Of a stretch of 49,130 nt of DNA, positions 11,665 to 47,267 are shown piece after piece; positions within the stretch are counted from its first letter, which is position 1, and every line of letters starts with the position of its first letter. This stretch comes from Candidatus Fusicatenibacter merdavium (lineage in GTDB: Bacteria; Bacillota; Clostridia; Lachnospirales; Lachnospiraceae): NCBI GenBank assembly GCA_019115005.1, contig DXEK01000015.1, positions 1-49,130 of the forward strand, written 5' to 3'. The notes under the pieces were generated by a model. That model saw only the letters and a list, made by a program, of their open reading frames with translations, did no database searches and had not been told where the DNA came from. The position numbers and the translations under genes were made by a program.

Positions 11665-12434
11665 ATCAATCTCTCCATTCCCAGGCTGCAAAGCGCCAGC
11701 CAGACCATTCCGGTCACTTCGCAGACCGACACAAACCATCCTGCAAGATCACCGGTGATCCCCCCGAAATATTTTTCACTCATCCTGCGGTAATACATCC
11801 AAACCAGCGCCTCCACAAGGACAGTTGCCAGAAAGACCGGATGAAACCATCCGAGAAACAGACAGGCCAGCGCCAGATATACGACGAGTACCGCCGTCAC
11901 CGCTCTTTTCTGTGCCTGTTTGCCGAAAGCCGCAGCCGTACCTTTCGGATTGGCATTGGGAAACCACAAAACAGACAAGGCGCTGAAACAGCGGGAGATC
12001 CAGAATATACTGCAGAACGCCGGCAGAACATTCTCGCGGATCTCTCCGGCAGCTCCCAACGCCGCCACGAACCAGACGCATCCCATGATGACCGCAAAGG
12101 CGCCTGCATGGGAATCCTTCAGAATCTCCAGGCGGCGCTCCTTTTCCCTCCAGGAACTGAGCGCATCCATCGTGTCCAGATATCCGTCGAGATGGATCCC
12201 CCCGGTCACCAGAACAGGAATCAGCACCAGCACCGCCGCCCGAAACAGACTGCCGGCTCCCAGAAATTCCAGGATCTTCCAGAAAAGAAACTCCAGGATC
12301 CCGACTGCAAGCCCGACCCAGGGGAAAAAGCACATCGCATACTGCATACTCTCTTTGTCCCAATCGGCTGCCGGCATGGGGATCTTTGAGTACATTGCAA
12401 AGGCAACCTTAAAATTATTCCACAATATTTTCAT
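11661..12434 (-). CDS. cobS: Adenosylcobinamide-GDP ribazoletransferase
   Basis: FKVAFAMYSKIPMP, FFPWVGLAVG, GGIHLDGYLDTMDALSSWREKERRLEILKDSHAGAFAV. Confidence 0.92.
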   Translation of the reverse strand: MKILWNNFKVAFAMYSKIPMPAADWDKESMQYAMCFFPWVGLAVGILEFLFWKILEFLGAGSLFRAAVLVLIPVLVTGGIHLDGYLDTMDALSSWREKERRLEILKDSHAGAFAVIMGCVWFVAALGAAGEIRENVLPAFCSIFWISRCFSALSVLWFPNANPKGTAAAFGKQAQKRAVTAVLVVYLALACLFLGWFHPVFLATVLVEALVWMYYRRMSEKYFGGITGDLAGWFVSVCEVTGMVWLALCSLGMERLI

Positions 12435-12949
12435 GTTCTCTTTACCTCCAGCGGAATGCCGTATACCACTTCCGTCACGCCGTCTGCCAGCTCCGCCAGA
12501 CGGCAGTTGATCTTTCCCAGCGTTCTCTGATATTCCACGGTCCCGCTGTCATATTCGATGCCGTCGGAAAAGATTTCGTTGGAGACAATGATCAGATTGC
12601 GCGCAGTCCTGCGCAGATGTTCCACTCCGCGAAGAATTCGCACATCCGTATCCTTCCCCGCCCCGTCCGGCCAGAACATCTCGTTGGCCGTCAGGTTGGA
12701 CATACATTCCAGCAGAACATCCGCCCCCTCCGGCACCTCCGCCTTCTCAAGATCCCGATAACATTCCACCGTTGTAAATTCCTTTTTGGCCCGCATTTCC
12801 CGGTGGCGCGCGATCCGCCGGTGGCTCTCCTCATCGTAGGGATACATAGTCGCAATGTAGATCCGCCGTTCGCCGTTCAGCGCAAGGATCTGCGCTTCCG
12901 CGTAGGCCGATTTCCCGCTTCCGCTGCCTCCCGTAATCAAATGCATCAT
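12431..12949 (-). CDS. cobU: Adenosylcobinamide kinase / adenosylcobinamide-phosphate guanylyltransferase
   Basis: MMHLITGGSGSGKSAYAEAQ, RIARHREMRAKKEFTTVE, LIIVSNEI. Confidence 0.92.
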   Translation of the reverse strand: MMHLITGGSGSGKSAYAEAQILALNGERRIYIATMYPYDEESHRRIARHREMRAKKEFTTVECYRDLEKAEVPEGADVLLECMSNLTANEMFWPDGAGKDTDVRILRGVEHLRRTARNLIIVSNEIFSDGIEYDSGTVEYQRTLGKINCRLAELADGVTEVVYGIPLEVKRT

Positions 12950-18367: not shown

Positions 18368-18663
18368 TGTCTGTTTCTCCTGTTCTCTGTCTCTCCGACA
18401 GATCAAAAACAAAACATGTCTGGAGTCCTGCGCTTTTACACAGATCTCCAGACATGTAACCGTCTGTTATTACATGAACTGCCCGGAAAATAGGAGCATG
18501 AAATTCATGACCTTTTGACCCTGGCATCATCACATGAGTTGCCCGACAGATGAGCATGAGACACGGATTGCTCCGCACTTCGTGCTCCCGCAATCCTGAA
18601 AACACCTCAAATCCGCTCATTTTTCTTCGAAAAATGGCTGCTTTTCGGTGTTTTACGCTCCAC

Positions 18664-18706
18664 AAAGTCATAAATTTTCATGCGAACATGAAATTTATGA
18701 CTTTTT
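18664..18706 (-). terminator. Terminator-like hairpin downstream of leuA (repeat family GTCATAAATTTCATG)
   Basis: AAAGTCATAAATTTTCATG / CATGAAATTTATGACTTTTT inverted repeat. Confidence 0.65.
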
Positions 18707-18719
18707 GTCGCTTGTCTCA

Positions 18720-20381
18720 TTACATGTTGTTGATCGCCGTTACCAGCGCGTCGATCGACGCGCGAATAATGTCAGGATCAACCCCGGCGCCCCAGGAGAG
18801 GGTTCCGTCCGGTTTCTTGACACCTACGTAAGCAATCGCTCTGGATCTGGAACTCTGCTCCAGTGCATGCTCCGTATAGGTGACAAGATCGTATTTCAGC
18901 CCGTAAGCTTTTTTCAGTGCGTTGCTGACCGCGTTCAGACGGCCATTGCCTTCCGCCTCAGTTGTGATATACTCGCCGCCCTCATAATTTGAGGTCACCT
19001 GGGTGAAAATCATGCCTTCCGGAAGCTGTTTAAAGTGTACGCCGTTGATATTGTAAGGCGTCGTCACATTTTCGAACGTATCCTTGAACAGCTGGAAGAT
19101 CTCCTCCGGAAGCAGCTCCTTGTGGAGATGGTCGGACACAGATTTGGCCGTATAACTCATAGCCTCACGCATCTTCGCCGGAAGATTCAGACCGTATTTT
19201 GTCTCCAGGATATATCCGACGCCGCCCTTTCCGGACTGGCTGTTGATGCGGATCACGTCCGCGTCGTAATTTCTTCCGATATCCGTCGGATCGATCGGCA
19301 GATACGGAACCGTCCAGGTGTCCGGATGTTTCTCGTCGATCCAGTGCATACCTTTCGCGATCGCATCCTGATGAGATCCGGAGAATGCCGCAAATACCAG
19401 AGAACCGCTGTATGGACTTCTCTCGTTGATCTTCATGCCGGTCAGGCGTTCATAGGTCTCGCTGATCTTCGGCATATCGGAGAAATCAAGCTCCGGATCC
19501 ACACCCTGCATATACATGTTCATACCAAGGGTGACAATGTCAACATTTCCGGTTCTCTCCCCATTTCCGAACAGCGTGCCCTCGATACGGTCAGCGCCTG
19601 CCAGGATTCCCATCTCCGCGTCTGCCACACCAGTTCCACGGTCGTTGTGCGGATGCAGCGAAAGCACCACATTCTCACGGTATTTCAGGTTCTTGCTCAT
19701 ATATTCGATCTGGCTTGCATATACGTGCGGCATGGAAAGCTGTACCGTACTCGGAAGGTTGATGATCGCTTTCCGGTCCGCCGTCGGCTGCCATACGTCC
19801 AGAACCGCGTTGCAGACCTCCAGAGCATATTCCGGCTCGGTTCCGGTAAAGCTCTCCGGGCTGTACTCGAAACGGTAATTCTCTCCCGTTTCCTCTGTCA
19901 GCTGTTTCAAAAGCTTAGCCCCATCCACTGCGATCTTCAGAATATCCTCTTTGGATTTCTTAAATACCTGCTGACGCTGCGCGTAGGAAGTGGAATTATA
20001 GACATGAACGATCGCGTTCTTGCATCCGCGCAGTGCGTCAAAAGTTTTCCGAATGATGTGCTCTCTTGCCTGTGTCAGAACCTGTACTGTCACATCGTCT
20101 GGGATAAGGTCCTGCTCGATCAGCGTGCGCAGGAACTCATATTCCGTCTCGGAGGCTGCCGGGAATCCTACCTCGATCTCTTTAAATCCGACTTTCACCA
20201 GCATTTTGAAGAACTCGATTTTCTGTTCCAGATCCATCGGGATCACCAGCGCCTGGTTACCGTCGCGAAGATCGACGCTGCACCAGATCGGCGCTTTCTC
20301 CACATACTCTTTTTCCGCCCAGTCCATGCATCTCACCGGCGGCATGTAATACTGTCTCTGATACTTCTTTGGATTCATCAT
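18720..20381 (-). CDS. leuA: 2-isopropylmalate synthase
   Basis: WCSVDLRDGNQALVIPMD, LHPHNDRGTGVADAEMGILAGADRIEGTLFGNGERTGN; start at MMNPKKYQRQYYMPP. Confidence 0.93.
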   Translation of the reverse strand: MMNPKKYQRQYYMPPVRCMDWAEKEYVEKAPIWCSVDLRDGNQALVIPMDLEQKIEFFKMLVKVGFKEIEVGFPAASETEYEFLRTLIEQDLIPDDVTVQVLTQAREHIIRKTFDALRGCKNAIVHVYNSTSYAQRQQVFKKSKEDILKIAVDGAKLLKQLTEETGENYRFEYSPESFTGTEPEYALEVCNAVLDVWQPTADRKAIINLPSTVQLSMPHVYASQIEYMSKNLKYRENVVLSLHPHNDRGTGVADAEMGILAGADRIEGTLFGNGERTGNVDIVTLGMNMYMQGVDPELDFSDMPKISETYERLTGMKINERSPYSGSLVFAAFSGSHQDAIAKGMHWIDEKHPDTWTVPYLPIDPTDIGRNYDADVIRINSQSGKGGVGYILETKYGLNLPAKMREAMSYTAKSVSDHLHKELLPEEIFQLFKDTFENVTTPYNINGVHFKQLPEGMIFTQVTSNYEGGEYITTEAEGNGRLNAVSNALKKAYGLKYDLVTYTEHALEQSSRSRAIAYVGVKKPDGTLSWGAGVDPDIIRASIDALVTAINNM

Positions 20382-20654
20382 TTTTCTTTCCTCCTGCTCT
20401 TTTCTTTGTCCGTTATTGTCCGACGCTGCGTCTCGAATCGCACCGAACCCGGCCGCCAAAGCGACAATTTCCCGATCCGCGTTTTCATACTGTTTCACAC
20501 AGGCTTCATCTGCCGAAAGGTTTCCGAAAACAGAAACCTTTTTGCACACCGCCGCAATACCGTAAGGCGATAAAACACCTTATCGCGGTGCTGTACATCC
20601 TTCCCGGAGGTTTTTTTATTCCATAGAACATTCCAATGGCCTTTCTTACAGAAT

Positions 20655-20970
20655 AAAAAAAGCCTTCCGCTCTCCTACATTCATCGAAATGTAACTAAGA
20701 GACGAAAGACTACGATTCTCACGCGGTACCACTCTTTTTTGCAGTTGTTCTGCACACTCATCAGATACGGATTTACTGGAAATCTTATATCCTTCCCCTG
20801 TAACGGTGGGACTCCGTCTGCGTCTACTCTCCCGATCTGTCATCAGGATTTCAGGCAGCCGCTCCAAGGTCAGTTCCATCGGATCCTTCTGCTGTTTCGC
20901 ATCAACCAACAGCTTTCTGAAAACCGGTTTCCGGTGTAATACTCCTCTTCTTCGCTTTGTGTTATGACCT
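20655..20970 (-). promoter_or_regulatory. T-box leader upstream of leuA
   Basis: Minus strand contains AGAGTGGTACCGCG (T-box), terminator stem ending GGAAGGCTTTTTTTATT, and a stem I-like GATGGAACTGACCTTGGAGCGG with candidate CUG (Leu) specifier. Confidence 0.85.
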
Positions 20971-21148: not shown

Positions 21149-21222
21149 TCGGGGCAACAGGATTTGAACCTGCGACCTCACGGCCCCCAGCCGTGCGCGC
21201 TACCAAGCTACGCCATACCCCG
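21149..21222 (-). tRNA. tRNA-Pro(GGG)
   Basis: CGGGGTATGGCGTAGCTTGGTAGCGCGCACGGCTGGGGGCCGTGAGGTCGCAGGTTCAAATCCTGTTGCCCCGA folds as a cloverleaf; anticodon loop CTGGGGG; CCA not encoded. Confidence 0.93.
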
Positions 21223-44437: not shown

Positions 44438-45679
44438 TCACGCATCCAACGGATACTTATCCGTCAGGCTCTTCACCAGTCCCAGGGCCTCTTCTCTGTT
44501 TTTCTCCGCGTCTTTCAGCATCAGAGAAATCGCCTCTGCGATCACATCCATATCTTCCGCATTCATCCCTCTCGCCGTCACTGCAGGAGTTCCCAGGCGC
44601 AGGCCGCTGGTTACAAAGGGAGACTGCGGGTCATTGGGGATCGCGTTTTTGTTAGCCGTGATGTTGACACTGTCCAGCAGAAGTTCCACTTCCTTTCCGG
44701 TTTTTCCCATCGCCGCCAGATCCACCAACATCAGGTGATTGTCCGTTCCTCCGGAGACGATCTGAATTCCGCGTTTCATCAGTCCAGCGCAGAGTGCCTG
44801 TGCATTCTCCACCACATTTTTTCCGTATTCCCTGAATTCGTCGCTGAGCACTTCCTTAAAGCAGACCGCTTTTGCCGCGATCACATGCATCAGAGGGCCT
44901 CCCTGGATCCCGGGGAATACCGCCTTGTTCAGCTTATGCTCTTTGGCAAACTCTTCGCTGGAAAGGATCAATCCTCCCCGGGGTCCGCGAAGGGTTTTAT
45001 GCGTCGTGGTCGTCGTCACATGAGCATAGGGAATCGGACTCGGATGCTGGCCTGACGCTACCAGTCCGGCGATATGCGCCATATCTACCATCAGATAAGC
45101 GCCTACCTCATCGGCAATCTCCCGGAACCGTTTAAAATCAATGATCCTCGCATACGCGCTTGCACCGGCGACGATCAGCTTCGGCCGGCTCTCCTTCGCC
45201 AGGCGTTCTACCTCATCGTAGTCGATCACACCATTCTCATTCACCCCATAAGGAACAATTTTAAAATATGCACCGGACATGTTCGCCGGACTTCCGTGGG
45301 TCAGATGGCCGCCGTGCGCCAGATTCATTCCCATCACAGTGTCGCCCGGCTGCAGCAGTGCAAAGAAAACCGCCATGTTCGCCTGGGCGCCGGAATGCGG
45401 CTGAACGTTTGCATAAGTGCATCCGAAAATCTTTTTCGCGCGCTTGATGGCCAATGTCTCGACTTCGTCGACCCACTGGCATCCGCCGTAATAACGTTTT
45501 CCCGGATATCCCTCTGCGTACTTATTGGTCAGTACACTTCCCATCGCAGCCATCACGGCTTTGGACACCCAGTTCTCGGAAGCGATCAGTTCAATATGAC
45601 TGTTCTGACGTTCCTGCTCCTTGACAATCAGGTCAGCGATCTCCGGGTCGACCGCCCTTACTTCCTCTAATGAATACAT
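44438..45679 (-). CDS. glyA: Serine hydroxymethyltransferase
   Basis: [64 protein letters not shown]. Confidence 0.96.
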
Positions 45680-45810
45680 ATTTTGTCCCTCCTGGAAATA
45701 CTTTTGTTTTTATGGTGCGCACATTATGAGTACATATTAGTGGATAGGGAGACCTTTGTCAAGAAGAAGTTTGCGGGAATTACTGTTTAAAAAAACAGTT
45801 CAGGACAATC

Positions 45811-46824
45811 TCACGGGGTCTTGCACCCGCCACTGTGCCTTAACTGATACAGCACATTGGTCCAGGAACCACAGACTTTCTGAAGCCGTTTCCACAGTTC
45901 CTTTGGGACCTCTTTCTTTTCAGGATCTCTCCCCAGCGTTTCGCGGATCTCCTGCAGCTTCTGCAGGTCACTGACTGTTGTCTCGTCAGGATTCACCAGC
46001 CGATAACAGCAGTCGTAGAGCGCCTGACTATGATGTCTGGAGCCTGGATTTTTCCGGTGATCGATATGAGTAGAAGAAAACGGCCGGATCCGCACCACGG
46101 GTTCCAGTCCCACCTGGTACAGGGCATTTCTCCAGCTTTTGCAGCTTGCGATCAGCGTTTCCTGCACTTCCCGTGGAACCTCGCTTTTTCTCGGAGGCCT
46201 CCCGGTCTCTTCCGCTTTCTTCCGGATCTCCCTCAAATATCTTCCGGAAATCTCGTCCAGATCTTCCACCGGATAAACTGCGTTTTTCTCAAAAAATTCC
46301 GCGTTCAGACCGGCCGCCCGTACGATAGCGCCCCAGTCTTTTTCATACTTTTTCAGTTTCGTACACAGCTCCGGCACATCTGAAGGGTGGGGGATCCTGC
46401 AAAGTTCCTTCGCCTCCTGCCTGAGCTGTCCGAGCAGCGACCGGTATCTCTTTTTATCCTCCTCCATCTCGCTCCAGGACTTGCCCCCGGATCCGGAAGA
46501 ACGCTTCAGTCCGGCCGTCTCCAGCGCATAAGGCCATTTTCGGAATCTTTTCCGAATATACTCCCGCAGCACCCAGAATACCTCCTTCTGAGACGGCGAA
46601 TGATCCAGCTCCCTGGCTCTTTTCCGCAGCAGCTCCAGAAGAAGTTCATCCTCCAGTCCTGCATAGAAACTCCGCCCTTTCCGTGTTTCAAGAGAAAACT
46701 CCTGATACAGGAAACCGGAAGTCTCCTGACGGCCCTGATCCATATCTCCGGCAGAAGCTGCCGACCGCAGCAGTGTCTGCAGCTTCTCCTTCTGTCCGGA
46801 ACTTATACTTTTCTCAGTGTTCAT
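45811..46824 (-). CDS. Protein of four HNH/homing-endonuclease-associated-type repeats, function unknown
   Basis: Repeats such as AEETGRPPRKSEVPREVQETLIASCKSWRNALYQVGL and RETLGRDPEKKEVPKELWKRLQKVCGSWTNVLYQL; no HNH catalytic motif seen. Confidence 0.7.
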   Translation of the reverse strand: MNTEKSISSGQKEKLQTLLRSAASAGDMDQGRQETSGFLYQEFSLETRKGRSFYAGLEDELLLELLRKRARELDHSPSQKEVFWVLREYIRKRFRKWPYALETAGLKRSSGSGGKSWSEMEEDKKRYRSLLGQLRQEAKELCRIPHPSDVPELCTKLKKYEKDWGAIVRAAGLNAEFFEKNAVYPVEDLDEISGRYLREIRKKAEETGRPPRKSEVPREVQETLIASCKSWRNALYQVGLEPVVRIRPFSSTHIDHRKNPGSRHHSQALYDCCYRLVNPDETTVSDLQKLQEIRETLGRDPEKKEVPKELWKRLQKVCGSWTNVLYQLRHSGGCKTP

Positions 46825-46904
46825 CTCACAACTCCCTTTTCTGCATTTTTCCCTGTATCTTTTGAAGGAATTCCCTGCACATGCCGTTTACAGGAAAGAA
46901 ACGG

Positions 46905-47110
46905 CAGCAAATACGCTCTGAGGCGGCAGGCTATGTCTTCTGCTCCCATCAAAAAAAGCCTGCTCCACCTGGAACGGGCCTTTTTCCTGCAAAAAAGACA
47001 GACTGCCGCTGGGGAAGTTTCCGCAAACCTGCGACCGCTTCGCCGACTTATACTCCCACTCACGGCGCCTGTGCCGGACTTTCACCGGACTTCCGATTAA
47101 GAGTTCCTGT
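46905..47110 (-). promoter_or_regulatory. Cobalamin-riboswitch-like leader
   Basis: Minus strand: CGGAAGTCCGGTGAAAGTCCGGCACAGGCGCCGTGAGTGGGAG (core-like), variable hairpin AAAAAGGCCCGTTCC.GGAGCAGGCTTTTT, and B12-box-like GCAGAAGACATAGCCTGCC. Confidence 0.7.
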
Positions 47111-47267
47111 ACTGCTTTTACATTCCTCATCGCATCTGTTTTTCAATTACGTCTGTCATTATACTTCCGGTCCTCTGTCTTGTCAATGTCTCTTTTCCTT
47201 GTGTTTCCCGCCGTAATAGGCTATAATGGTTCCAAAACTTTACCGAAAATATTACAGGAGGATTTTC

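Follow-up and report, generated by a model that had tools for sequence, protein, structure and literature searches.

A compact relative of cobalamin aptamers in the leader of an HNH_repeat gene of Candidatus Fusicatenibacter merdavium

The HNH_repeat gene and its leader

The window analysed here is the whole 49,130-nt stretch of Candidatus Fusicatenibacter merdavium contig DXEK01000015.1 (assembly GCA_019115005.1, positions 1 to 49,130 of the forward strand). Its minus strand carries a 337-aa open reading frame, described in a first-pass annotation as a repeat protein, and this frame matches PF18780 (HNH_repeat; 1.2e-32) over four stretches. Past the end of the gene lie an inverted repeat and a T run, and then glyA (44438-45679), so that the HNH_repeat gene probably forms a transcription unit of its own upstream of glyA. 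The features of the locus are as follows.

45782..45800, minus strand: inverted repeat AACTGTTTTTTTAAACAGT and T run, read in the sequence; likely gene end before glyA
45811..46824, minus strand: HNH_repeat protein gene, 337 aa, four repeats (PF18780, 112.5 bits versus a cut-off of 26)
46951..46985, minus strand: intrinsic terminator AAAAAGGCCCGUUCCAGGUGGAGCAGGCUUUUUUU, its hairpin kept in congeners G003 and G004 with a compensatory change
46993..47007, minus strand: candidate switching strand GGCAGUCUGUCUUUU, from RNAalifold of three congeners
47026..47138, minus strand: compact cobalamin-type aptamer element, 113 nt, from covariance models R1 and R2 and covariation
47027..47035, minus strand: 3' strand of P1, GUCGCAGGU, from the hand-written fold and the covariation test
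47041..47067, minus strand: CGCCG-UGA-[mini P7]-AAGU-CGGCG, helices 5 and 6, with six pairs changed on both sides
47073..47090, minus strand: P4-L5, GUCCGG-UGAAAGU-CCGGC, helix 4, aligned to RF01482; the best-kept cobalamin signature
47101..47128, minus strand: first hairpin, GAG-gaa-UGU...ACA-ggaa-CUC, helices 2 and 3, all cells paired
47129..47137, minus strand: 5' strand of P1, AGAUGCGAU, partner of 47027-47035, from helix 1 of the hand-written fold and RNAalifold
47158..47186, minus strand: promoter TTGACA-17-TATAAT, 12 of 12 consensus letters

No HNH nuclease domain was found in the protein with Pfam or NCBIfam. Full-length members of the family are basic (pI 8.5 to 9.7), AlphaFold on the single sequence gave a mean pLDDT of 44.5, and no solved structural relative was found by sequence. 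The four repeats are in keeping with PF18780, the homing endonuclease associated repeat, but the protein departs from that label in lacking a nuclease domain and in its setting, which is a B12 regulon rather than a phage or an intron. HNH_repeat is mentioned as a repeat family modelled without a known structure (PMC8078820); nothing further naming this almost unstudied family, and no paper tying it to cobalamin riboswitches, was found in the library searched. A basic, repeat-built protein of this kind could plausibly bind nucleic acid and regulate the B12 regulon; the B12-responsive DNA-binding role suggested for it in the first-pass annotation is a guess.

The element sits between the perfect promoter, whose hexamers are identical and whose spacing class is alike in the G003 and G004 leaders, and the intrinsic terminator. 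The first-pass annotation had noted a cobalamin-riboswitch-like core, GGAAGTCCGGTGAAAGTCCGGCACAGGCGCCGTGAGTGG, and that core is present at 47056-47094 of the minus strand; the conserved element is larger and begins further 5' than was then seen. The proposed B12 box, GCAGAAGACATAGCCTGCC (46925-46943), proved to be outside the element, on the 3' side of the terminator, and the two congeners with a retained leader do not conserve it. The counterpart of the B12-box region is instead AAGUCGGC inside the element (AAGUCAGC in most relatives). A promoter and terminator separating the element from the gene had been named as an objection to any control of the gene by the leader. A terminator does intervene, but no promoter-like site was found 3' of it and before the gene; since a terminator is expected for attenuation, the objection does not apply.

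Searches with Rfam 15 at curated cut-offs returned zero matches in the minus-strand leader, and the assignment to a cobalamin family fails by score. The best permissive match was RF01482 (AdoCbl) at 20.1 bits versus a cut-off of 50, with an E-value of 0.36 when 701 bases were searched with all families, a score that is unimpressive taken alone. RF00174 reached at best 10.3 bits on the element versus a cut-off of 31.5, with no match at gathering. When the whole 2.7-Mb genome was searched with RF01482 up to E=10, the four matches were this leader and the genome's three RF00174 riboswitches, so in context the resemblance of the leader to a cobalamin riboswitch goes beyond chance. Matches to Thr_leader, toxic-sRNA and P34 (E 0.4 to 4) are accounted for by the terminator hairpin. 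An FMN riboswitch was also considered, as the core letters partly resemble the RFN element, and was rejected when cmscan up to E=10 gave no FMN match.

Conserved fold and kinship to cobalamin aptamers

Genomes were sampled from the genus (7), relatives (98), the family (396), the order (392) and the class (388). The HNH_repeat gene is rare in these samples, occurring in four of the seven genus genomes and in seven others. The 113-nt element recurs before it in eight of these 11 known carriers (the window's own genome, G003, G004, G697, G244, G432, G699 and G873), and searches with model R1 found it absent from the loci of G027, G787 and congener G001, the last of which keeps the gene at 86% identity.

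The eight copies, three of them from one genus, were aligned over 125 columns, and a hand-written fold agreed almost pair for pair with the RNAalifold prediction. In this alignment 95.6% of cells pair and seven pairs have changes on both sides, a result reached by one of 500 shuffles; shifting the fold by one to three columns as a control left only 31-51% pairing. Model R1 scored the window element at 99.2 bits. Model R2 was built from the five element sequences outside the genus; the test is not circular because the model contains no sequence of the genus. With R2 the window element was the sole match in 49 kb, at 68.7 bits and an E-value of 4.5e-14 whose calibration is rough.

A functionless, decaying cobalamin riboswitch, or a chance likeness, would be in keeping with scores under all Rfam cut-offs and with loss of the element in G001. 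This reading is contradicted by the covariation with its compensatory changes, by conservation of the promoter and terminator, and by copies in seven other genomes that reach another family of the class and stand beside intact RF00174 riboswitches; we consider it exceedingly improbable.

The element consists, in order, of P1 (AGAUGCGAU/GUCGUAUCU), a hairpin, UUAAUC..AA, P4-L5 (GUCCGG-UGAAAGU-CCGGC), ACA, UGCUG-UGA-[mini P7]-AAGU-CAGCA and the closing strand of P1. The RF00174 consensus runs as an outer helix, a hairpin, UAAaaGGGAA, P4-L5 (GGUGcaAauCC), the P6 mini-hairpin, ACUG-UAA-[P7 to P11]-AGC-CAG-GAGACC and the outer helix again. The helix order of RF00174 (outer helix, hairpin, P4-L5 and a CUG/CAG helix with P7) is thus reproduced in the element, in which the window's CGCCG-UGA-[mini P7]-AAGU-CGGCG is the counterpart of ACUGUAA-[P7]-AGCCAG of the consensus. 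The retained cobalamin signatures are the hairpin, the L5 motif GGUGAAA.UCC of P4-L5 (with GGUG and UCC unchanged across the eight copies), and GCUGUGA-[P7]-AAGUCAGC. RF00174, including its compact members (for example G105, G225, G292 and G763), shares with the element the outer helix, the hairpin, a UAA-type joint, P4-L5 with GGUGAAA.UCC, and CUGUGA-[P7]-AAGUCAG followed by the outer helix. With RF01482 the element shares P4-L5 (GGAAGUC.GGUGAAA.UCC.GCAC) nearly letter for letter, but it departs from that family in the outer helix and at the end of the aptamer. In seven of the eight genomes, RF01482 gives a weak signal at the element.

In contrast to RF00174, the element has no GGGAA joint, no UUAC before CUGUGA and no GACC of the B12 box, all of them constant features of known cobalamin aptamers. 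Accordingly, the pairing of GGG in the joint with ACC in the B12 box does not exist here, and neither strand is conserved in the eight copies. The P7-P11 periphery and the P6 mini-hairpin are also absent, and the GCUG/CAGC helix is extended to five pairs. G003 has AUAA in place of GGAA. By eye, no conserved complement of L5 was identified in the terminator loops that might form an L5-L13 kissing loop.

Outside the subfamily, family and class scans with R1 up to an E-value of 0.01 gave hits in G105, G225, G763 and G245. The first three are RF00174 riboswitches over the cut-off, and the fourth falls below it at 19.9 bits. In 200 kb of gene loci, three of the four next-best R1 matches likewise overlap RF00174 riboswitches. 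In other genomes, R1 hits scoring between 18 and 31 bits were rejected as subfamily members, the best being compact RF00174 riboswitches, and hits in G030 and G300 look spurious. G245 holds four compact cobalamin-like cores (L078, L098, L101 and L102; R1 20 to 27 bits, RF00174 17 to 20 bits). Two of these share a contig, with about 840 bases between them, and the four perhaps represent a further compact subfamily.

Gene context and tandem arrangement with RF00174

Outside the genus, an RF00174 riboswitch over the cut-off stands above every one of the seven HNH_repeat genes (G027, 113.4 bits; G699, 90.7; G244, 76.2; G432, 75.5; G787, 69; G873, 65.7; G697, 64.8). G873 is from a different family within the class, and the G787 protein is a distant one-repeat relative. 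The description of the window leader as cobalamin-riboswitch-like is therefore upheld by its homologues, if not by Rfam membership. At six of these loci HNH_repeat directly follows the riboswitch as the first gene; the G244 riboswitch instead stands at the head of an operon that HNH_repeat appears to close.

Partner genes of B12- or cobalt-uptake type were found at six of the seven loci. They comprise EcfT/CbiQ, ECF ATPases, an S component and DUF4430 proteins in G244 (Pfam), frames of the same kinds (EcfT/CbiQ, ECF, DUF4430) in G027 by eye, DUF4430 in G787, a FecCD permease, Peripla_BP_2 and an ABC ATPase in G697 and G873, with CbiZ also in G873, and a NikA-like transporter in G432. G699 has no uptake partner; a leucine-rich-repeat frame comes next, and then a second RF00174 match. 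Among element-bearing genomes, the leader belongs to B12 or cobalt genes in G244, G432, G697 and G873, and in the genus the gene stands alone. RF00174, like the element, is found before B12-uptake genes with an intrinsic terminator after it.

The second RF00174 of G699 (L071:6033-6257, minus strand; 41.9 bits) is downstream of the HNH_repeat gene, and a cobalamin-like core below the cut-off (L071:6402-6513, minus strand) lies about 145 nt upstream of it, possibly another tandem. In the window's own genome, an RF00174 riboswitch at L046 (G000:C76) precedes ABC permease genes resembling those after the G432 HNH_repeat gene; the L046 locus is without an HNH_repeat gene, as if the gene had moved away. 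Another RF00174 riboswitch of this genome (L047:1410-1608; G000:C156:37409-37607, plus strand; 96.5 bits) has no same-strand frame of at least 150 aa for about 960 bases downstream.

The association of leader and gene proposed in the first-pass annotation extends to the element itself, which is also contained in five of the seven RF00174-bearing leaders outside the genus. Side-by-side comparison of these leaders identified it as a separate unit co-existing with RF00174, not as an eroded version of the neighbours' riboswitch. The element is upstream of RF00174 in G697, G244 and G432, and downstream of it, before the gene, in G699 and G873. By eye, the two abut in G697 and G244 with no clear terminator between them, and each aptamer apparently has a separate terminator in G432, G699 and G873. 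In the passages searched of a review of tandem riboswitches, two aptamers likewise share a leader, with a shared terminator or two separate ones (PMC9481103). A pair made of a classical RF00174 aptamer and a diverged relative, as seen here, was not found in those passages.

The protein itself might control its own leader: HNH_repeat would bind the leader RNA (or DNA) and govern termination, the likeness to an aptamer being only ancestry. All element copies above 80 bits do occur with an HNH_repeat gene, and the protein is basic. Against this stand the genes without an element in G027, G787 and G001, and the operon of G244, headed by the element with HNH_repeat last, in which the uptake genes would be controlled first. 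We regard such autoregulation as very unlikely.

Proposed attenuation and the nature of the ligand

We consider it probable that the leader is a compact, diverged relative of cobalamin riboswitches without Rfam coverage, which attenuates an HNH_repeat gene of the B12 regulon, and that its ligand is most likely a corrinoid, given the kinship and the gene context. Transcription from the strong sigma-A-type promoter would yield an aptamer of about 110 nt, made up of the outer helix P1, the first hairpin, a joint, P4-L5 and the GCUG/CAGC helix with its mini P7, followed by the intrinsic terminator and then the gene. P1 is predicted to compete with a helix in which the 5' strand of P1 pairs with a strand further downstream. 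In RNAalifold of the three congeners, GGCAGUCUGUCUUUU is able to pair with AAAACAGAUGC (47132-47142), excluding P1; the putative switch in the genus would be this pairing of AAAACAGAUGC with GGCAGUCUGUUUU, and comparable strands can be seen in G699 and G873. Stabilization of P1 by the ligand may then change the pairing of the downstream strand, and with it the choice between termination and read-through. When whole leaders were folded freely, the congeners gave competing structures, and G699 alone gave the full aptamer fold; we therefore do not commit to an ON or OFF switch. The HNH_repeat protein would belong to the regulon for B12 and cobalt uptake, perhaps as a regulator that binds nucleic acid.

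The element may instead descend from a cobalamin aptamer whose pocket has been remodelled for another ligand, the tandem with RF00174 acting as a two-input gate. This is a serious rival because the changed letters are those that are constant in known cobalamin aptamers: J3/4, the start of J6/3 and the B12 box are altered together in all eight copies, with the scaffold kept. Furthermore, the two aptamers in one leader of five genomes would be redundant if they sensed the same ligand, although tandem aptamers for one ligand are known. The cobalamin and cobalt uptake context is found throughout, and there is no candidate ligand; we thus judge a changed ligand unlikely. The fuller proposal, that a riboswitch class with a different ligand grew from the cobalamin aptamer and, as a two-input gate in relatives, controls an unnoticed nucleic-acid-binding regulator of corrinoid and cobalt uptake, seems to us similarly unlikely.

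The RNA is a natural variant of the cobalamin aptamer in which pocket letters are changed and the scaffold is kept, and because it stands in tandem with the classical form, ligand specificity can be tested directly. Compact relatives of cobalamin riboswitches are missed by current Rfam models. A comparative study describes cobalamin regulons as made up of isozymes and of genes for B12 synthesis and for the transport of B12 and cobalt (PMC3766115). A conserved HNH_repeat gene in such regulons, often first after the riboswitch, is a repeated exception to these categories and suggests that B12 uptake has a regulator or accessory factor that has been overlooked.

Elsewhere in the window, the cobTUSC-type operon was said to have no cobalamin leader. 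This looks right, as Rfam detects no cobalamin riboswitch there; PF02283 (CobU) matches at 12431-12949, and the flanking minus-strand frames are CobT-, CobS- and histidine phosphatase-like by eye. The window also holds, on the minus strand, a T-box leader (RF00230, 102.7 bits; 20695-20961) before a leuA-type gene (18720-20549), with a tRNA gene (21149-21222) just upstream of the T-box. Just 3' of the leuA-type gene, on the same strand, lies a Clostridiales-1 RNA (RF01699, 113 bits; 18557-18719), an RNA of unknown function.
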